A DNA stretch of 63,458 nt from Chloroflexota bacterium (GTDB lineage: Bacteria; Chloroflexota; Dehalococcoidia; SHYB01), in contig JACZVV010000003.1 of NCBI GenBank assembly GCA_022572465.1, positions 1 to 63,458 on the forward strand, given 5' to 3'. The notes below the pieces were generated by a model. That model had not been told where the DNA came from and did no database searches. It was given only the letters and a program-made list of their open reading frames with translations. Shown here in pieces: positions 3,402 through 19,450 of the stretch. Every line of letters begins with the position of its first letter. The stretch's first letter is position 1. The translations under genes and the position numbers were made by a program.

Positions 3402-6400
3402 GTGGGCAGGCCGGGCGCGCAACGGCGAATTCATACGCCAACCCGTTGCCGATCTTTATTCATGGAAGACGAATACGACAGCCCCTCGCTAGAAGCCGAG
3501 CTGCAGCGCTTCCCCGCGTCGGTGGTCAGCGAGTACCACAAAGCGGAGCGTGAGGCGAAGCGCCGGCTGAGGCCGGAAGACCTCGATGCCTGGGCTCGCG
3601 AAGGCATTGCCATCGCCCAGCATTCGTTCCGCTCCTGGGAAGCGGCCACCGAGTACTTCCGCGCCACGCCGGAAGTTGCCGCTCGCATGGCCTTCCCGCA
3701 GCTGTTGAGCTGGGCCCGATGGGGCCGCTCCCTTTCGGCCGATTCGCCCGTTGTCTCCTCGTCTTTCTTCCGCGCCAGTCCCCAAGTGCTGAACTACATC
3801 GAGCCGGAATCGATCGGCCGGTGGGCCACCTACGGGAAGGGTCTCTACAAGGGCACGTGGAAGTCCAGCTCGCTGGCCTCGACCTACTTCGAGTCCAGTC
3901 CAAGGCTGCTCCAGTTCTTGAACCTGAATGAGCTGGAAGAGCTCATCGGCTTTATCGACACGCTGGCCGAGAAGTCCTACGACCTGGCCAACGAATGCCT
4001 GGCCAACGCCGATGGCGTTTTCTCCAAAGTCGAGCCGCCCGACCGGCGCAGCTTCCTGTCGCTGGCCGCGGTCCTGGCCCGGTCCAACTGGCGTGACATC
4101 AAGCCGTTTTTCGAAAACGGGTCTCGAAGCCTCGTCTATCTGGAGAAGAGTCAAAGAAGCCGGTTCCTTTCCCTGGCCGAGCGCCTGGCGAAGGACGGCG
4201 GCGGAAACGCTATCGGGTTCCTCCTGGATGCATCGGCCGCTCTGGGCGAGATCGACCAGTCCAGGCATGTGCAGATGCTGGGCATGGCCGAGCGGCTGGC
4301 CGACGTCTGTCCGCCGGCCGTTGGGGAGTTCCTGCGCAACGCGCCGCAGGTGTTGGTCCGTGTGAAGGACCAGTACCTGGAGCTCTGGTTCGAAGAGGGC
4401 GTGAAGATCCTGCGAGAGAACGAGGACGGCGGCCTGGCCTTCTTCCGGCTGGAGTCGGGGCGGGGCGAGCGCGTGCTGGAGAGTCTGACCAACGGTGTGC
4501 AGCTAGACCGAATCAAGGAAATCATGACGATGTACTGCCGGGCGCTCTCGGGCAGACCGGTGGAGCTGCTGCCCACCCAGGACCTGAAGGAGCGGGGGAT
4601 CGGCTGGAACTCGTCCGAGCAACCGACCACGGAAGGGAACAATATTTATCTACCGGCCTTCGTGGAGCGTTACGGTTCGAAAGAGCTCAATTTCGGTTGG
4701 TTCAAGGTCATCGCCACGCACCAGGTCGCCCACATGGAGTTCGGCAGCTTCGAGTTCCAGTTCGAGCGGCCGTCGTCGCTGTTCGCCGACCAAGATCAGC
4801 GGATGGTGATCGCCGGCGCCAGCAGCAACGGCGCCCATGACCCGGTGACCGACGTCCAACGCTTTTTCGACCTCTTTCCCGACCGGCAGCTGGCGGCCGA
4901 TATCTTCACCCTGGTCGAAGACGGCCGCATCGACCACCGGGTCAAGTGGGAGTATCCGGGGCTCCGCAAAGCCTACGAGGCCGTGCAACGAGAGGCGGTG
5001 GCCCAGCGCCAGGAGCCCAACACGTTGCCCTTGCGGGAGTCGCTGATGGAGGTGCTGGTGCGGCTGAGCCTGGAGGACCCCGACGTGCTGACGGTCCACG
5101 CGGAGCTGCGCGAGCACATCGAAGCCATCGCCAGCCTCGCTAAGGCGGTGCAGCGCTTCGACGCCACCGTCGAGGACACCGCCGAGGTCACCGTTCGCAT
5201 CTACGACATCGTCAGCCAGACGCCCAACATGGAGGCCATTCCCGAGGAGTCCGAGGAGCGCACAACCGACGAGATGGGCCAGAGCCCCGACATGGAGGCG
5301 CTTCAGCAGCTCATACAGGAGCTCCAGGCGGGAGGCAAGGGCCAGGGCGACGCGCCTCCCAAGGGCCGGGTCGAGGAGGAGTATAACCGTCCTCAGCGGG
5401 TGGAGTTCCGGGGCGAGTTCAAGCCCGAGCTGGTGCAAGCGCTGGAGAACCTGAAGCAGGACGCTTCAAAATCCGAGTCCGACATGCGGCAGACGGGCAT
5501 CTCTCCGGAAGACCTGAAGCAGATGCTCCAGAACAGCGCCGAGATCGAGATCTCGGAGGTGGAGCAGGGCGAGATCGACCGGTCGATGGGGATGTTCGTC
5601 GATAATCTGATCAATGAGGCGGCCAAGCAACAGGCTAAAACTCAGCAGGGGACCCAGTTCGCCCATAGCTCCGACGACGATCAGCCCCTCGCCAACCAGG
5701 AGCCGGAGACCTTCCTCTACGACGAATGGGACTTTCGAGCCGCCGACTATAAGCCCCGCTGGTGCTGCGTCCGCGAGAAGCGGATGGAAGAGGGCACCCA
5801 GGACTTCTTCGATAAGACGCTCAAGAGCCACTCGTTCCTGGTTGCCAAGCTCAAGCGGCAGTTCGAGATGCTGGCGCCCGAGAAGCTGCGCAAGGTCAAG
5901 CACCTGCCCGACGGCGACGAGTACGACTTCGACCTCGTCGTCGAGTCGGTTATCCAGAGGATGGCCGGCGACACGCCTACCGACAAGGTCTACTGGCGCC
6001 GCAACAAGATCCAGCGGGACGTGGCCGTGGCCTTCCTCCTGGACATGAGCGCGTCCACCGCCGAGGCCGTCGACGAGGCGCGGCGTCAGTTCGACACGTG
6101 GGACTTTCCCGACGACCCCCGGGACTACATGGCCTGGCTCCGGACCCGGCGTGAGGAGATGAGCCGCCGGACCTACAAGCGGATCATCGACATCGAAAAG
6201 GAAAGCACCATCCTGTTCATCAAGGCGCTGGAGGCCATCGGCGACAGCTACGGCATCTTCGGCTTCTCCGGCTACGGCCGCGAGAACGTCGAGTTCTACG
6301 TGATCAAGGACTTGGACGAGAAGTTCGGCGACCACATCAAGCGGCGGATCGACAAGATCACGCCGATGCACGCGACGCGCATGGGCCCGGCCATCCGGCA

Positions 6401-6704
6401 CGCCATCACCAAGCTGGACCGCCAGGAGGCGCGCACGAAGGTGCTGTTTCTCCTCAGCGACGGCCGGCCTCAGGACCGGGGCTACAGCCGCGAGGGCGTC
6501 GAGAAAGAGTACGCCGTCCACGACACCCGCATGGCGTTGAACGAGGCGCGGCGCAAGAAGATCGTGCCCTTCTGCCTCACCGTCGACCGCTCAGGCCACG
6601 ACTACCTCAAGACGATGTGCTCCGACATGGGGTACGAGGTGGTGACCGACATCCACTCGCTCCCCGAGCGCCTGCCCGCCCTCTACCGCCGCCTCACGCT
6701 GTAG
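3402..6704 (+). CDS. Large VWA-domain protein, NorD/CbbO-like partner of the MoxR ATPase
   Basis: The protein has about 1100 residues. The first 380 or so are helical repeats of a W/Y-F-x-x-S/T-P pattern. A central region contains a NorD-like segment (FTLVEDGRIDHRV) and a long charged, Gln-rich linker. The C-terminal von Willebrand A domain has the MIDAS motif DMSAST near residue 881 and LLSDGRPQD near 1017. NorD and CbbO are usually 600-800 residues, so this one is long. The GTG at 3402 has AAGGAG only 2 nt upstream; an ATG at 3462 without Shine-Dalgarno is the alternative and would remove an unconvincing 20-residue N-terminus. It most likely forms a complex with the upstream AAA+ ATPase. 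Confidence 0.85.
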   Translation: MGRPGAQRRIHTPTRCRSLFMEDEYDSPSLEAELQRFPASVVSEYHKAEREAKRRLRPEDLDAWAREGIAIAQHSFRSWEAATEYFRATPEVAARMAFPQLLSWARWGRSLSADSPVVSSSFFRASPQVLNYIEPESIGRWATYGKGLYKGTWKSSSLASTYFESSPRLLQFLNLNELEELIGFIDTLAEKSYDLANECLANADGVFSKVEPPDRRSFLSLAAVLARSNWRDIKPFFENGSRSLVYLEKSQRSRFLSLAERLAKDGGGNAIGFLLDASAALGEIDQSRHVQMLGMAERLADVCPPAVGEFLRNAPQVLVRVKDQYLELWFEEGVKILRENEDGGLAFFRLESGRGERVLESLTNGVQLDRIKEIMTMYCRALSGRPVELLPTQDLKERGIGWNSSEQPTTEGNNIYLPAFVERYGSKELNFGWFKVIATHQVAHMEFGSFEFQFERPSSLFADQDQRMVIAGASSNGAHDPVTDVQRFFDLFPDRQLAADIFTLVEDGRIDHRVKWEYPGLRKAYEAVQREAVAQRQEPNTLPLRESLMEVLVRLSLEDPDVLTVHAELREHIEAIASLAKAVQRFDATVEDTAEVTVRIYDIVSQTPNMEAIPEESEERTTDEMGQSPDMEALQQLIQELQAGGKGQGDAPPKGRVEEEYNRPQRVEFRGEFKPELVQALENLKQDASKSESDMRQTGISPEDLKQMLQNSAEIEISEVEQGEIDRSMGMFVDNLINEAAKQQAKTQQGTQFAHSSDDDQPLANQEPETFLYDEWDFRAADYKPRWCCVREKRMEEGTQDFFDKTLKSHSFLVAKLKRQFEMLAPEKLRKVKHLPDGDEYDFDLVVESVIQRMAGDTPTDKVYWRRNKIQRDVAVAFLLDMSASTAEAVDEARRQFDTWDFPDDPRDYMAWLRTRREEMSRRTYKRIIDIEKESTILFIKALEAIGDSYGIFGFSGYGRENVEFYVIKDLDEKFGDHIKRRIDKITPMHATRMGPAIRHAITKLDRQEARTKVLFLLSDGRPQDRGYSREGVEKEYAVHDTRMALNEARRKKIVPFCLTVDRSGHDYLKTMCSDMGYEVVTDIHSLPERLPALYRRLTL

Positions 6705-12330: not shown

Positions 12331-13290
12331 CTAGCGGAGGGCGTGGTCCGGCCCCTCGAGGGGGTGGGGGTGCTCGCGGCAGTATGGCGTCGCGGCGCCG
12401 GTACACCTTGCCCGGCATTGTTCGGCGGGAACCAGGCACGGCTCGACGTGGATGGTGGTGATGGTCCCAGGCATGGCCGCTTCCACGTCGGCCTCGATCT
12501 GGTCCGTCAGCTCGTGAGCCTCGGCGACGGTGACCAGGCGGGGCACCACCAGGTGGAAATCGACGTGCCGATAACGGCCCGAGCGACGGGTGCGCATGCC
12601 GTGGTAGCTCACGAACCGGTCCTGACGCCGCGTCAGGATGTCTCGCACCAGGTTCTCTTCGGTTTCCGGCAATCGCATGTCCAGCAGATCGCGGAAGGAA
12701 CGGCCGAACAGCCGAAATCCCGTCCACGTGACGAACGCGGCCACAGCGAGGGCCACGGCCGGGTCCAGAACCTTGGATCCCGACGCCTGCACGATGACCA
12801 GGCCCACCAGCACGCCCAGCGAGGTGACCACGTCGGAGGTGCGGTGCCTGGCCGTGGCTTCGAGAGCAAAGGAGCCGGTCTGCCGGGCGACTCTCCGCAG
12901 GTGCAACGCCATCAGACTGTTGACGGTCAGCGAAATGGACATGGCGGCGATGCCGAGGTAGACGTTGTCGATGGCCGAGCCTGAATCCAGGCGGCGTATG
13001 GCCTCGAAGGCGATGAACCCCGCGGCGCCGAGGATGAGGAGCGACTCGACGATGCCGCTGACGTTTTCGATCTTCCCATAGCCGTAGGGGTGCTCCCGGT
13101 CCGCGGGCCTGGCGGCCATCCGAATGGCCACCAGGGCCACCATCGCGCCGACGAGGTCCATGCCGCTGTCGACGGCGTCGGAGAGGACGCTGATGCTGCC
13201 GATGGCGAGACCCACGCTCAGCTTGAGCGCTACCAGCGAGACGTTGGCTGCAAGAGAAAGGGCGGCTGCCCCTTGTGCGGTTTTGAACAT
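12331..13290 (-). CDS. Cation diffusion facilitator (CDF) metal exporter
   Basis: This 319-residue inner-membrane antiporter, probably for Zn2+, Fe2+ or Mn2+, has six predicted helices. TM2 carries SDAVDSGMDLVGA, and the loop REHPYGYGKIENVSG is characteristic of the family. The cytoplasmic C-terminal domain has YHGMRTRRSGRYRHVDFHLVV, the metal-sensing ferredoxin-like fold. It is the last gene of the def-cca-secD-secF run, 42 bp after secF. The last 25 residues (about 12331-12405) include several Cys and His (CRARCTG, CREHPH) that could bind metal. Confidence 0.92.
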   Translation of the reverse strand: MFKTAQGAAALSLAANVSLVALKLSVGLAIGSISVLSDAVDSGMDLVGAMVALVAIRMAARPADREHPYGYGKIENVSGIVESLLILGAAGFIAFEAIRRLDSGSAIDNVYLGIAAMSISLTVNSLMALHLRRVARQTGSFALEATARHRTSDVVTSLGVLVGLVIVQASGSKVLDPAVALAVAAFVTWTGFRLFGRSFRDLLDMRLPETEENLVRDILTRRQDRFVSYHGMRTRRSGRYRHVDFHLVVPRLVTVAEAHELTDQIEADVEAAMPGTITTIHVEPCLVPAEQCRARCTGAATPYCREHPHPLEGPDHALR

Positions 13291-13332
13291 GCGCTGCTCC
13301 CGCGGCGGGCCGCTGGGATAGGCGGCTTGGGG

Positions 13333-16020
13333 CTAGGCCGGTTTGCGGCGCGGGCCGAAGGGGTGCCGAAGCCGGCGGAGCTCGCCCTTCTCCCACGACA
13401 CCAGGAAGTTGCCCGCCAGGAACAGCGAGCTGTAGGTCCCGGCCAGAACACCGATCAGCAAGACCAGCATGAAGTCCCGGATGGTCGGGCCTCCAAACAG
13501 GATCACCGCAAGGATTGCCGTGGTGGTCGTCAAGCTGGTGTTCAGGTTGCGGCTCAAGGTCTCGTTCAGGCTGACGTTCACCGAGACCTCGAAATCCCTG
13601 CCTGGGTGGCGGACGACGTTCTCTCTTATCCGATCGAAGACGACGATCGTGTTGTTCACGCTGTAGCCGATGATGGCGAGGATGCCCACGATCATCAGCG
13701 AGTTGACCTCGACGTTGAGAAACTTGGCCATGACGCCGAAGGCCCCCAGCACGATGAGCACGTCGTGGACCAAGGCGAGGATGGCGGCGACGCCGAAACG
13801 AAGCGGGCGGCTGACGCGGCGGAACGCCCACCAAACGTAGACGAGGATGCCGAGGGTCCCGGCCAGGACAGCCCAAAACGTGTTCAGGATGCTGCGGCGG
13901 GCGATCTCCGCGTCGACGGAGGAGAACTCCAGCGTGTCGCGCTGCACCGTCGCCAGCTCCTCCAGCGCCCGGATGATGGTGCTGCGCTGGTCGTCCTGCG
14001 GGCGGGTGCCGCGAAGGAAAAACCCGTTCCCCCTGGGCTCGATAACGAGATCCGTATAACCGAACCCCGGCTCCGCCAGGAATCGACGCAGCGTCTCTTC
14101 CGTCACGGGCTGCTCGATGAACGACACGTTCAAGGCGATCGAGCGGCCGAAGTCGAAGCTTTCCTGAAGGAGCGCCCCGTAGGCCTCGGATAGGGCCGAG
14201 AAGATGCTTTCTTGCTGGGCCAAGGTCAGGCGGTTGGCCGCCAGGAAGATCCCTTCGTCGCCGGCGTCTTGCACGATCAGATCGCGTCTGACCGCCTTTG
14301 CCGCGGCGTCGCGATCGGTGATGGCCGCGGTGAAGAGCTGGGCGGACTCGAAGTCGAACGGCGTCTGTTTGGCCGGCCCGAACTCCTCCTCCAACGTGGC
14401 GATCAGCTCCTCCTGAGCCTCGGCCCCGAAACCCGCGCCCGCGAGGGTCAACGCCGTGCCAGACCCCGGCGTCACCAGGACGCCGGCGATGCCCTGGCGC
14501 CGGAGCTCTCGCCGGAGGATGTCAAGAGTCACCGCCTGCCCGTAGTCGAGCAGCGCCGCGAAGCCGCTTTCGTGGTCGAACTCGGTCCGTTCGATGGGGC
14601 CGAACCGCTGTTCCAGGCTGGTGACCAACCGGTCTTGGGTCTCGGAATCCACGGCCCGGATGCCGATGAAGAACCGGCTCTCCGTGAGCTGCGCCACCAG
14701 CAGCTCGGGAATGCCCTGGGTCTGGAGCTCGGCGATGATCTCCGATTGCTCCGTCGGCACCCCGAAGTCCAGGATGACGGACATATCGCCCTCATCCGAG
14801 AACGTGGTGGCCTTCGCCAGACCGAACCGGTCTTCCAGCCGCGTAAAGAGATCGTCCCGCTGCTCCGACGCGATACCCTCACCGACCAGGGCGAACGCGG
14901 TCTCGGCAAAGAACTCGGCCACCACGTCGTCGAGCCCGCGGCTGGTCGCCTCGATTCGGAAGGTCTGGAAGTCGACCGCGGGGCCGAAGTCCACCGTCAT
15001 CGCCAGGTCGTCGGCACTCTCGAAAGTCGTGAAGTCCAACGGGCCCAGGGTCTGCTCCAAGCGCGAGCGGAGCTGCTCGCCTTGGCTTGGCGTGAGATCG
15101 GCCCCGGTGATGAGGTAGAGGCCCAGGCCGGCCCGCTGGACCACTGCCTGGTCGCCGGCCGCCTCGGTGGCGGGGAAGATGGCCAGCTCGGTCAACACGT
15201 CGTCGAGAGTCGCGGGGTCGGTGAACGCCACCGTGAACATCTGACCGGTCTCGTAGTCGAACGGGGTCTGCTCCACCTCTCCGAACCGCTCGGTGAGAGC
15301 GGTGATCAGAGCCTCGGTGTCTTGCTGCGAGTAGTCCTTGGCGGCGACACGAACGGCGCCGTCGCCGAGGTTGACGACGATGACCGGGGGGAGGCCAGAG
15401 GTGCGCAACTCAGTGGCAGCCGCGCCCGGATCCACGTCGGTGCCGAAGTCCAACGTCAACGCCAAGTCTCCTTCGGCGTCGAACTCGGTGCGCTCGAAGG
15501 CGCCGAACCTCTCCTCCCACGACTCGAAAACCGTCGCCAACAGCTCGTCCGAGAGGTCGGTGGAGGAGACGAAGATCTGGCCCACCGTGACCGTTTGAAT
15601 GATCAGATCGTCGGGCTGGCCTTGGCCGAACTCGACGCGAAGCTCCTCGGCTGGAACGGGGTTGGGAAACGATACGGTCGTCACCAGATCGGTCGCGCCC
15701 TCGAAGCTCGTCGTCTGGACCAGGCCAAACCGCTCTTCCAGCCTGGGGATCAGTCCCTCCTCCACGAACTCGGTGCGGATGAAGAACGACATATCGCCGG
15801 TCTGTTGAATCACCGGGTCGGCCAACCCGATGGCTTCCAACTGGTTCCTGACGTCTTCGGTGTCGACGGCCTCTTCAAAGTCGATGGTGAGCGACGAGCC
15901 GCTGGAGAACTCCAACCCGAACGGGATTCTGGGCGGCGCAATGAGGGCGATGATGGAGCCCACGACCAAGACCGCCGTAAGCAGGTAGAACCATTTTCGT
16001 AGCCGGACGAAATCAATCAC
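13333..16020 (-). CDS. secF: Protein translocase subunit SecF with a greatly expanded periplasmic domain
   Basis: SecF works with SecD in the membrane, using the proton gradient to pull exported proteins through SecYEG. Normal SecF has about 300 residues; this has 895. TM1 is at about residues 11-30, and TM2-TM6 lie between about 711 and 875, with IGYSVNNTIVVFDRIRENV as the SecF signature. Between TM1 and TM2 the single P1 domain is replaced by eight tandem units of about 74 residues, each with an ERFG-like anchor followed by TxF. The open reading frame is uninterrupted and overall coding is normal. It lies 15 bp after secD in the same operon. Confidence 0.93.
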   Translation of the reverse strand: MIDFVRLRKWFYLLTAVLVVGSIIALIAPPRIPFGLEFSSGSSLTIDFEEAVDTEDVRNQLEAIGLADPVIQQTGDMSFFIRTEFVEEGLIPRLEERFGLVQTTSFEGATDLVTTVSFPNPVPAEELRVEFGQGQPDDLIIQTVTVGQIFVSSTDLSDELLATVFESWEERFGAFERTEFDAEGDLALTLDFGTDVDPGAAATELRTSGLPPVIVVNLGDGAVRVAAKDYSQQDTEALITALTERFGEVEQTPFDYETGQMFTVAFTDPATLDDVLTELAIFPATEAAGDQAVVQRAGLGLYLITGADLTPSQGEQLRSRLEQTLGPLDFTTFESADDLAMTVDFGPAVDFQTFRIEATSRGLDDVVAEFFAETAFALVGEGIASEQRDDLFTRLEDRFGLAKATTFSDEGDMSVILDFGVPTEQSEIIAELQTQGIPELLVAQLTESRFFIGIRAVDSETQDRLVTSLEQRFGPIERTEFDHESGFAALLDYGQAVTLDILRRELRRQGIAGVLVTPGSGTALTLAGAGFGAEAQEELIATLEEEFGPAKQTPFDFESAQLFTAAITDRDAAAKAVRRDLIVQDAGDEGIFLAANRLTLAQQESIFSALSEAYGALLQESFDFGRSIALNVSFIEQPVTEETLRRFLAEPGFGYTDLVIEPRGNGFFLRGTRPQDDQRSTIIRALEELATVQRDTLEFSSVDAEIARRSILNTFWAVLAGTLGILVYVWWAFRRVSRPLRFGVAAILALVHDVLIVLGAFGVMAKFLNVEVNSLMIVGILAIIGYSVNNTIVVFDRIRENVVRHPGRDFEVSVNVSLNETLSRNLNTSLTTTTAILAVILFGGPTIRDFMLVLLIGVLAGTYSSLFLAGNFLVSWEKGELRRLRHPFGPRRKPA
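13921..15855 (-). repeat. Tandem protein repeat array inside SecF (about 8 x 74 residues)
   Basis: Anchors fall at SecF residues 97 (LEERFG), 171 (WEERFG), 245 (LTERFG), 324 (LEQTLG), 398 (LEDRFG), 472 (LEQRFG), 546 (LEEEFG) and 613 (LSEAYG), with a weak ninth near 688. Spacing is 74 residues in five of the intervals between anchors. Each anchor is followed within about ten residues by a T/S-x-F. Most units continue with a short strand ending DFG or similar. Copies differ widely in DNA sequence, so the array is old rather than an assembly artefact. Confidence 0.88.
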
Positions 16021-16035
16021 GGAGAGCTCCCGAGG

Positions 16036-17388
16036 TCACAAGCCCAAGGATGGGGATTCGCGGCCTTTGACGTCGGCGAACAGCGTCATACGGCGCGACA
16101 CCGGCGTTCCTACCAGCAGCCGCAGGAACGTCCGGCTGACAAAAAACGCGACGAACATACTGGTGGAGACCGCGATGATCATCGTGAGGGCGAAGCCGAT
16201 GACCTTCGGCTCGCCCAGCTGATCGCCGAACCACCACAGGATGGCCATAACCAGCAAAGTGGTGATGTTGCCGTCTCGTATGGCGGACCAGGCGCGTTCG
16301 AATCCGGTCTCGATGGATGCGCTGAGGCTTCGACCGGCCCGCAGTTCCTCTCGCATCCGCTCGAAGATGATGACGTTGGCATCCACGGCCATGCCCACGG
16401 AGATGACGAAGGCGGCGATGCCCGACAGCGTGAGGGTGATCTCCAGGAACTTGAAGATCGCCATGACCAACACGGTGTAGATGATCAGCGAGAAGGCGGC
16501 GACGACGCCGAGCATTCGGTAGTAGGCCATCATGAACATCATGACGAGCCCGAGGCCGATGGCGGCGGCGATGTAGCTCTTCTGCAGAGAGTCCTCGCCC
16601 AGCGTGGCCGAGACGTCCTGCTCCCGTACCACCCTGATGCTCACCGGGAGCGCCCCGGCGTTGAGCTGGATGGACAGGCGCTCGCCTTCCGAGCGGCTAA
16701 TGCCGGTGATGCGGCCCTGGCTGCTGATGACAGCCTGGATGATGGGCGCCGAGATGAGCTGGTCGTCGAGGAAGATGCCCAGAGGACGCCCCAGAAGCCG
16801 CCGGGTGATCTGCTCGAATATGCGGGCGCCTTCGCGGTTGAACTCGAAGGAGACCACCGGCAATCCGGTGCCGGGGTCGGGGACGACGAAGGAGTTGGGG
16901 CGCATGAACTCGCCGGTCAGGTGCTTGATTACGCCGCCGCTGCCTTCGCCGGTTGCCGGCTCCCATCCGGGGCAGGTCGCTCGGGAGATCGCCGTCGGGT
17001 CGACGCACTGCCGGAAATCGAGCTGGGCGGTGCCGCCGATGAGGGCTTTGGCCTCGTCGATGTCCCGAACGCCCGGGAGCTGGATGACGATCTCGTTGTT
17101 GCCCTTTTTCTGGATCAGCGGTTCGGAGACCCCGAACGAGTTGATCCGGCGCTCGATCACGCTCACCAGGCCGTCCATCTGCTCGCTGGTCACGTTGGGG
17201 TCGTCGGCCCGGTAGACCAGGTGCGTGCCGCCCTGAAGGTCCAACCCCAGACGCAGTCCCAGGGGTCCTTCCTCGGACCCTCGATGGACGCCGGGGATGT
17301 CGATGGTGCGAAACATGAGCGCAGAGGCGGCTAGCCCGACCATGACGACGATGATGGCCAGGAAGATCCGATTTCTCCGCGAACGCAC
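16036..17388 (-). CDS. secD: Protein translocase subunit SecD
   Basis: This 450-residue membrane protein has TM1 at about residues 8-26, then LGLRLGLDLQGGTHLVY, the SecD signature. The P1 domain includes RRINSFGVSEPLIQKKG. TM2-TM6 occupy the C-terminal 170 residues, with AVDANVIIFERMREELR in TM4 and DGNITTLLVMAIL in TM5. With SecF it drives late steps of protein export. Its P1 domain is of ordinary size, in contrast with SecF. The gene starts 3 bp after the cca stop and is followed 15 bp later by secF. Confidence 0.96.
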   Translation of the reverse strand: MRSRRNRIFLAIIVVMVGLAASALMFRTIDIPGVHRGSEEGPLGLRLGLDLQGGTHLVYRADDPNVTSEQMDGLVSVIERRINSFGVSEPLIQKKGNNEIVIQLPGVRDIDEAKALIGGTAQLDFRQCVDPTAISRATCPGWEPATGEGSGGVIKHLTGEFMRPNSFVVPDPGTGLPVVSFEFNREGARIFEQITRRLLGRPLGIFLDDQLISAPIIQAVISSQGRITGISRSEGERLSIQLNAGALPVSIRVVREQDVSATLGEDSLQKSYIAAAIGLGLVMMFMMAYYRMLGVVAAFSLIIYTVLVMAIFKFLEITLTLSGIAAFVISVGMAVDANVIIFERMREELRAGRSLSASIETGFERAWSAIRDGNITTLLVMAILWWFGDQLGEPKVIGFALTMIIAVSTSMFVAFFVSRTFLRLLVGTPVSRRMTLFADVKGRESPSLGL

Positions 17389-17391
17389 AGT

Positions 17392-18843
17392 CTATTCCGT
17401 CCTCGGGGAAGGGTGTGAGCGGCCCCGTTTGAGCAATCGTCTGGCCAGCGCCAAGGCGTCCTTCGCCGTCGACACCTCGCCGGCGGCCAAGGCCTCTTTC
17501 ATCGCTTCCAGCAGATCGCCCACCTGGGGGCCGGGCTCCAGACCCAGCTCTCGCATCAGATCGTGGCCATCAATCAGCTTGGGTGGAAGGGCCTCGGGAG
17601 CCTGGTGCCGCCAGCTATCCAGCATACCATGAATCTGTTCGACGTTCCGGAGCCACTCATCGGCCTCCAGCAGCGGCCCGCGCGCGGCCAGATGGTCCGC
17701 CAGACTCAGATAGAGCGTGTCCACCGCCACATCGCCGGCGTCGCGAAAGAACCGATATACGGCGCGGCGCGAAGGCCCCCCGTCCCGGCTGATGAGGCCC
17801 GGGCGCAGGTGCTCCCGCACCATGGTTACGACGGCGCCGGTCTCGCGGTTTCCGAAACGCAGGCGCTCCATGGCCTCCTGGGTCATCCGGGCGCCCAGCT
17901 TGGGGTGGCCGAGGAATCGAATGCGGCCGTCGGCTTCGATGGTCTTGGTGGCGGGTTTGGCCACGTCGTGGAGCAGCCCCGCCAGCTTGACGAAGAAGCC
18001 TCGGTCGCGTCCGCCGCCGGCCTCCTGAGCGAAGTAGCCGGCGATCTCGTCGTCCCAGGGCGTGGGAAAACGCTGCTCATCGTCGCTCACGTGCCGCAGC
18101 ACCCGCTCGGCGGCGGCGACCGTCTCGATGGAGTGCTGCAAGACGTCCCAGTGATGCTCCTTGGGCTGGGTTACCTCACGGGAGGCCTCCAGCTCGGGGA
18201 GGATGCGCGTCAGCAGGCCCAGACGGTCCAGGAGCCGCAGCCAGACGGCCGCGCCGGGATGCGCGAGGATACGGCAGAACTCGTCCCGGACCCGCTCGGC
18301 AGCGACCGACTCCAGGAGATGAGCGTCGCGGCGGATCAGCGAGCAGGTCTCGTCATCCAGGGTGAAGTCGAGCTCGGCAGCCAGCCGGACTGCTCGCAAC
18401 AGGCGCGCGCCGTCGTCCCGGAACACGCCGTCGCCGACGGCCCGGACCACGCCATCACGCAGGTCGGGGAGGCCTCCGACGGTGTCGATGACTCGCGCGC
18501 CGGCGGGCTCGGCCGCCAGGTCGCCGAGGGCGACGGCCAGGGCGTCGATGGTGAAATCCCGGCGTTGGGCGTCGTCGCCAGGCCCCCCGGCAAGCGGCGT
18601 CAGGTCCAGCACGCCACGGCCTCGGCCGAGGACCAGGCGGAAGGTGCGGCGCCGCTCATCCAGCGCGACCACCGAGGCGGCGAGGGGAGAGCGCAGGGCG
18701 TCGGCCAGGGCCTTCGGGTCGACGGCAACGGCGACGTCGAGATCCCCGATGGGACGGTCCAGGAGCGCGTCGCGCACCGCGCCGCCCACCAGATAGCCCT
18801 GGGCGTTCTGTTGGGCCAGGCGCCGCTGCACGGTGGCCAGCAC
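17392..18843 (-). CDS. cca: CCA tRNA nucleotidyltransferase with HD domain
   Basis: This 483-residue protein adds or repairs the CCA end of tRNAs, or is a poly(A) polymerase relative. The nucleotidyltransferase head has YLVGGAVRDALLDRP (residues 17-31) and the catalytic DLD at 34-36. A GARLLRAVRLAAEL helix follows, and an HD phosphohydrolase domain has LLHDVAKP near residue 290. The GTG at 18843 lacks a clear Shine-Dalgarno, and the frame stays open upstream towards def, so the N-terminus may be slightly longer. The tRNA-Cys in this window already encodes CCA, which suggests a repair role for that tRNA. Confidence 0.9.
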   Translation of the reverse strand: MLATVQRRLAQQNAQGYLVGGAVRDALLDRPIGDLDVAVAVDPKALADALRSPLAASVVALDERRRTFRLVLGRGRGVLDLTPLAGGPGDDAQRRDFTIDALAVALGDLAAEPAGARVIDTVGGLPDLRDGVVRAVGDGVFRDDGARLLRAVRLAAELDFTLDDETCSLIRRDAHLLESVAAERVRDEFCRILAHPGAAVWLRLLDRLGLLTRILPELEASREVTQPKEHHWDVLQHSIETVAAAERVLRHVSDDEQRFPTPWDDEIAGYFAQEAGGGRDRGFFVKLAGLLHDVAKPATKTIEADGRIRFLGHPKLGARMTQEAMERLRFGNRETGAVVTMVREHLRPGLISRDGGPSRRAVYRFFRDAGDVAVDTLYLSLADHLAARGPLLEADEWLRNVEQIHGMLDSWRHQAPEALPPKLIDGHDLMRELGLEPGPQVGDLLEAMKEALAAGEVSTAKDALALARRLLKRGRSHPSPRTE

Positions 18844-18928
18844 GGCCGCGGCTTCGGGAGGGACGGAGATGACTGTGTCTCCCCGTCCTGAGCCGGAGAG
18901 GGCCTTTGAATGGTCCAGCAGAACGTCC

Positions 18929-19450
18929 CTACCCAGCCGCGACCTCCGCGGCTTCGCCGGCCTCGATCTCCGTCAGGGTGTCCAGGGTTCCCTGCTCCTT
19001 CATCCGATCGAGATACAAGATGCCGTCCAGGTGATCGATCTCGTGCTCCAGGGCCTGGGCCATCAGCTCGTCGGCCTTCAACCGCACCTCGTGTCCATCG
19101 CGGTCGAGACCTTTGACCTTGACCCACTCGGACCGGGTAAGCATGCCGCGGTAGCCGGGGATGCTCAGGCAGCCCTCCTCGACCTCGCGTTGTCCGCCCT
19201 TCTTGACGATCTCTGGGTTGACCAGGACGTACTCGTGAACGGTCTCGTCTTCGGCGTCGGGGATGCCCATGACCAGGACACGCAGGGCCACGCCGATCTG
19301 GTTGGCCGCCAGGCCCACGCCGCGGGAGGCGTACATCGTCTCGAGCATGTCGTCGATGAGCTTCTGGACCGAGCCGTCGATCTTGCCGACGCGCTTGGCC
19401 TTGCGGCGGAGGATCGGATCGGGGGCGGTGCGAAGTCTCAGAACGGCCAC
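18929..19450 (-). CDS. def: Peptide deformylase
   Basis: Def removes the N-formyl group from new proteins. All three motifs are present: GVGLAANQIG (residues 44-53), EEGCLS (91-96, metal ligand C94) and QALEHEIDHLDG (132-143, ligands H136 and H140, catalytic E137). The length of 173 residues is typical. It is the first gene of the minus-strand operon and has a good promoter about 100 bp upstream. No formyltransferase gene (fmt) is adjacent. Confidence 0.97.
   Translation of the reverse strand: MAVLRLRTAPDPILRRKAKRVGKIDGSVQKLIDDMLETMYASRGVGLAANQIGVALRVLVMGIPDAEDETVHEYVLVNPEIVKKGGQREVEEGCLSIPGYRGMLTRSEWVKVKGLDRDGHEVRLKADELMAQALEHEIDHLDGILYLDRMKEQGTLDTLTEIEAGEAAEVAAG

Follow-up and report, generated by a model that had tools for sequence, protein, structure and literature searches.

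A SecF protein with nine tandem copies of its soluble domain in a family of Dehalococcoidia

The window analyzed here, i.e., the whole stretch of 63,458 nucleotides of contig JACZVV010000003.1 (a Chloroflexota bacterium of the class Dehalococcoidia), carries an ordinary secD gene followed by a secF gene whose product is far longer than usual. Both genes belong to a same-strand cluster (12331-19450, minus strand) which also encodes a peptide deformylase, a CCA-adding tRNA nucleotidyltransferase, and a CDF-type cation efflux protein. Elsewhere in the window, an open reading frame of 1100 residues (3402-6704, plus strand) has a von Willebrand factor A domain (PF00092, 1.6e-7) at its C-terminus, the remainder having no Pfam match. 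Most bacteria have SecF, whose layout is generally regarded as fixed, with one soluble domain between TM1 and TM2 and a length of about 300-350 residues. Here this soluble domain is named P1; structural studies call it P4. The features of the locus are the following:

16036-17388, minus strand: secD, 450 aa, ordinary, 15 bp upstream of secF
13333-16020, minus strand: secF, 895 aa, GTG start (PF02355, 6.5e-50; TIGR00966, 1.1e-76; PDB SecDF 5xan, 8.7e-44)
15940-16011, minus strand: SecF TM1, residues 4-27 (helix in the model; TIGR00966 N-terminal piece)
15688-15897, minus strand: unit 1, residues 42-111, GG-like motif immediately before (51-54% identity inside the family)
15466-15687, minus strand: unit 2, residues 112-185 (unit HMMs)
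15244-15465, minus strand: unit 3, residues 186-259 (unit HMMs)
15007-15243, minus strand: unit 4, residues 260-338, with an extra loop (unit HMMs)
14785-15006, minus strand: unit 5, residues 339-412 (unit HMMs; AlphaFold2 pair model, pLDDT 88.4)
14563-14784, minus strand: unit 6, residues 413-486 (unit HMMs; AlphaFold2 pair model)
14341-14562, minus strand: unit 7, residues 487-560 (unit HMMs)
14143-14340, minus strand: unit 8, residues 561-626, the shortest (unit HMMs)
13912-14142, minus strand: unit 9, residues 627-703, joining TM2 (54-59% identity inside the family)
13390-13902, minus strand: SecF TM2-TM6, residues 707-877, with VVFDRIREN (65-70% identity inside the family)

By its sequence, its operon, and its membrane part, the 895-residue protein is a true SecF by descent. 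PF02355 matches residues 688-878 with 169.6 bits (cut-off 20.5), and TIGR00966 matches the whole protein with 258 bits (cut-off 160), the array dividing this match in two; the N-terminal piece of the model (positions 1-89) falls on the N-terminus of the protein (2.1e-12). The nearest solved structures by sequence are the SecDF proteins of Deinococcus (8.7e-44) and Thermus (1.8e-39). Like Thermus SecDF (3AQP), Deinococcus SecDF (5XAN), and E. coli SecF (5MG3 chain F), the protein has a six-TM RND-type membrane part with VVFDRIREN, the succession TM1, soluble part, and TM2, the secD-secF gene order, and a ferredoxin-like soluble unit. It differs from them by having nine such units instead of one and 895 residues instead of about 300-350, and the single soluble domain is the sole defining feature of SecF that it does not present. 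The motif before the soluble part reads GLEFSSGSS; its GG is degenerate, and Pfam Sec_GG gives no call. The original prediction, made from the letters of the window, held that the membrane part and the VVFDRIREN signature are intact and that SecD is normal; the PF02355 match and the ordinary domain content and length of SecD agree with both statements.

In the loop between TM1 and TM2, the soluble domain proper to SecF is repeated nine times in tandem. An HMM of P1, trained on about 50 SecFs of the class that have a single soluble domain and not on the 895-residue SecF, finds nine successive matches in the loop (161.5 bits in total, against 7.2 for the best of 300 shuffled loops). With an iterated unit HMM, each of the nine units is called at E ≤ 2e-10. 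The profile of the seven inner units matches the single-P1 profile with E = 4.8e-17, against 0.07 or worse for column-shuffled controls. In the autocorrelation of the protein, the top peak lies at a lag of 74 residues (z = 11.5), followed by 301, 227, and 148, at or close to multiples of 74. The tandemly multiplied P1 and the 74-residue spacing that had been predicted are thus recovered by the protein self-comparison and by the HMM search, both of which had been proposed as checks, and the predicted fold described below agrees with them. The count, on the other hand, has to be revised. Eight units and a weak ninth had been proposed, between residues 56 and 700 (13921-15855); the HMMs place nine units over residues 42-703. 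The eight ERFG anchors correspond to the ends of units 1-8, and unit 9, devoid of FG, is together with unit 1 the best conserved unit within the family.

The fold was predicted with AlphaFold2. For units 5-6, using an alignment of eleven non-overlapping unit pairs from three genomes, the model (pLDDT 88.4, pTM 0.80) contains two beta-alpha-beta-beta-alpha-beta units set in a defined orientation to each other, and its nearest matches in the PDB are ferredoxin-like folds in tandem. The full-length model, made with three sequences, is poor (pLDDT 52, pTM 0.28), so that the arrangement of the nine units in it is of low confidence; it contains the beta-alpha-beta-beta-alpha-beta pattern nine times, with edge strands partly absent in units 4, 8, and 9, and its top PDB matches are, at this low confidence, SecDF structures. 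A repeated P1-like fold, whose presence in a structure prediction had been proposed as a further check, is found in both models, and each unit is predicted to adopt a ferredoxin-like fold of the P1 type. In Thermus SecDF, the soluble domain of SecF (P4) and the base of SecD P1 both have a ferredoxin-like fold and join in an almost continuous sheet (PMC5141469).

The nine-unit SecF is conserved in all four genomes of the family that were examined (G000-G003, three genera), where it is colinear with 43-45% identity. Three of these proteins are full length (895-906 aa) and the fourth ends at a contig end. No other SecF is present in G001 and G002, which are 97-98% complete; the nine-unit protein would thus have to do the normal job of SecF with the enlarged loop in place. 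Conservation is uneven along the protein: identity inside the family amounts to 65-70% in the TM part, 51-54% in unit 1, and 54-59% in unit 9, and to 21-38% in units 2-8. For 23 of the 27 units compared, the best match is the unit at the same position in another genus. Within the inner units, 10-19% of the positions are identical across the three genera, chiefly core residues and the FG turn. Unit number and order are therefore kept while the inner sequence drifts, which suggests that the end units may hold the working contacts and that the inner ones may act as spacers, maintaining length and fold; the drift also fits weak or no selection on the inner units. High acidity was considered as a special trait of the array and rejected: the array of the window bears -11.8 net charges per 100 residues, those of its relatives -2.4 to -3.6, and single P1 domains -8.9 on average. 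Among the family members, G001 (L092, SHYB01000004.1) is a Dehalococcoidia MAG from Lake Baikal, and G003 (L091, CAMAVV010000099.1) is titled Thermoflexus hugenholtzii JAD2, a name which is probably wrong, its SecF being that of the Dehalococcoidia nine-unit family.

Outside this family, the copy number changes. The sister family (G004, the only other family of the same order examined) possesses an ordinary single-domain SecF in an open frame of 351 aa, and among the 41 nearest relatives and a survey of 400 genomes of the phylum, the array, searched at full length, matches the nine-unit family only. A search of genome contigs with the single protein as query gave no match; with an alignment as query, it gave again two members of the nine-unit family together with two single-unit SecFs. 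Other enlarged SecFs were selected with a SecF family model in a survey of 393 genomes of the class. Inspection of the loci revealed two-unit SecFs in about a dozen families and a five-unit SecF in one family (L009 in G033, open frame of 676 aa), a second genus of which is represented by a contig-end fragment (L146 in G060) with 62% identity to L009. These two- and five-unit proteins (L011, L020, L082, and L009) resemble the nine-unit SecF in the kind of unit, its tandem layout, and its place, and differ from it in having two or five units and in not grouping with it in a tree of the membrane part, so that the expansions are probably separate events. The state changes 13 times between one and several units on this tree; for the two-unit group, at least six changes are forced by well-supported branches, many deeper branches being weak and the exact number uncertain. 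The best explanation for the array is that tandem duplication, in the ancestor of one Dehalococcoidia family, raised the number of P1 copies from one to nine.

Loop length alone was rejected as a sign of repeats, since in the families f3 and f115 the loop is long but free of them. In their long SecFs (L079, L085, and L128), the TM1-TM2 loop is also enlarged (184-262 residues), but it holds one P1 unit and a low-complexity insert instead of nine tandem units. In f3 (L079, L080, L085, L087-L089, and L133-L136), the insert of about 100-170 residues lies between strand 3 and helix 2 of P1. In f115 (L125-L132; genomes of about 4-11 Mb), a P1-like first unit precedes a second part that matches poorly, within a loop of 184-262 residues; several of these SecFs also have a Thr/Ala/Pro-rich spacer.

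The proposed count among relatives thus yields nine units in the family, one in the sister family, and two or five elsewhere in the class. It had been stated that no SecF of this kind was described, and we likewise found no earlier report of a multi-domain SecF in the literature searched, subscription papers being mostly outside reach. The case is not isolated, however: the nine-unit SecF is one extreme of a graded series (one, two, five, and nine units) within the class. As far as could be found, its form is new, and the functions proposed for it are putative. This natural series offers a ready test of the role of a little-understood soluble domain, and could show how far from the membrane SecDF acts.

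How might such a protein work? The original prediction saw in the array a long arm reaching out from the membrane. The array does lie outside the membrane, but it begins at TM1 and returns to TM2, so it forms a loop or arch and cannot be a free arm; at best it could extend to about half its contour. The uses suggested for such an arm, catching exported proteins at a distance from the translocon or bridging to a surface layer, are conjectural. The reading that we favor, with a probability of roughly 0.45, is that of a working SecF whose P1 domain was multiplied to nine, the end units keeping the contacts of the ordinary domain and units 2-8 serving as spacers which enlarge the arch. The partner of the nine-unit SecF would be the product of the secD gene that precedes it. 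The two end units, unit 1 at TM1 and unit 9 at TM2, would probably go on touching the membrane part and the base of SecD P1. Units 2-8 would probably be folded and fairly rigid, so that the loop, otherwise short, becomes a several-fold larger arch. The benefit would be that proton-driven movement acts at a greater distance from the membrane, or on more of the space around the exit of SecY. A more ambitious version, which we hold as tentative and on balance doubt, would make the nine-domain loop a novel functional component of the Sec machinery, i.e., a proton-driven arch of many domains handling or guiding long secreted chains at distances well past those that ordinary SecDF attains. It would have evolved by stepwise P1 multiplication, with independent shorter versions in related families.

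The array could instead handle substrates. Each unit would offer a weak binding edge, and nine of them would form a multi-site holdase opposing backsliding and keeping large exported proteins unfolded outside the membrane. SecDF is indeed thought to grip emerging chains, chiefly via the head of SecD P1 (PMC8669966), ferredoxin-like edges are able to extend sheets, and repeats commonly multiply weak binding. But the inner units have no common surface motif, their few identical positions lying mainly in the core and the FG turn, and a foldase of the PrsA/PpiC type is already present in the family; we consider a holdase unlikely. The expansion could also be nearly neutral, tandem duplication of the P1 region being easy and tolerated in the class and the array bringing no added function. 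The recurrence of two-unit SecFs on the tree argues for it, as do the low-complexity inserts of other families, which indicate that this loop tolerates insertions. On the contrary, useless repeats are expected to shrink or to differ in number, and here nine units and their 74-residue phase have been kept in three genera down to 43-45% identity, with the fold residues conserved, which makes neutrality improbable in our eyes.

A link with the envelope, in which the loop extends to the cell wall or a surface layer so as to anchor the translocon or set its position there, seems to us quite unlikely. The periplasmic domains of E. coli SecDF contact the BAM complex across the periplasm (PMC7695460), so SecDF can be a spanning element. 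No Omp85 protein was found in six genomes searched, those of the nine-unit family included, which makes a bridge to an outer-membrane BAM complex unlikely; a larger loop could do something similar in a cell without outer membrane. The array, however, has neither a wall-binding motif nor a conserved distal unit, and the middle units 4-6, which would lie farthest out, are among the least conserved. Lastly, that the array is an artefact of assembly or gene calling can be practically dismissed, Tandem Repeats Finder finding nothing in the DNA, the units being at most 71% identical to one another in DNA, and the frame being open in four independent genomes.

In the spacer reading, the proton-driven membrane engine would probably run as in other SecDF. 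SecD D336 and SecF R824 are kept (Thermus SecD D340 and SecF R671). At the position of Thermus SecF D637, which we take to be a residue of the proton path, the nine-unit SecF differs from that of Thermus in having Asn (N790; 13651-13653, minus strand), and this holds for all four family members. Asn also occupies this position in 11 of the 73 single-unit SecFs surveyed; a link between the substitution and the expansion is thus not supported, and the substitution is not tied to the array. Proton coupling could nevertheless differ from that of other SecDF. Several families of the class have secD and secF fused in a single open frame of about 800-930 aa (L016, L017, L022, L030, and L072).
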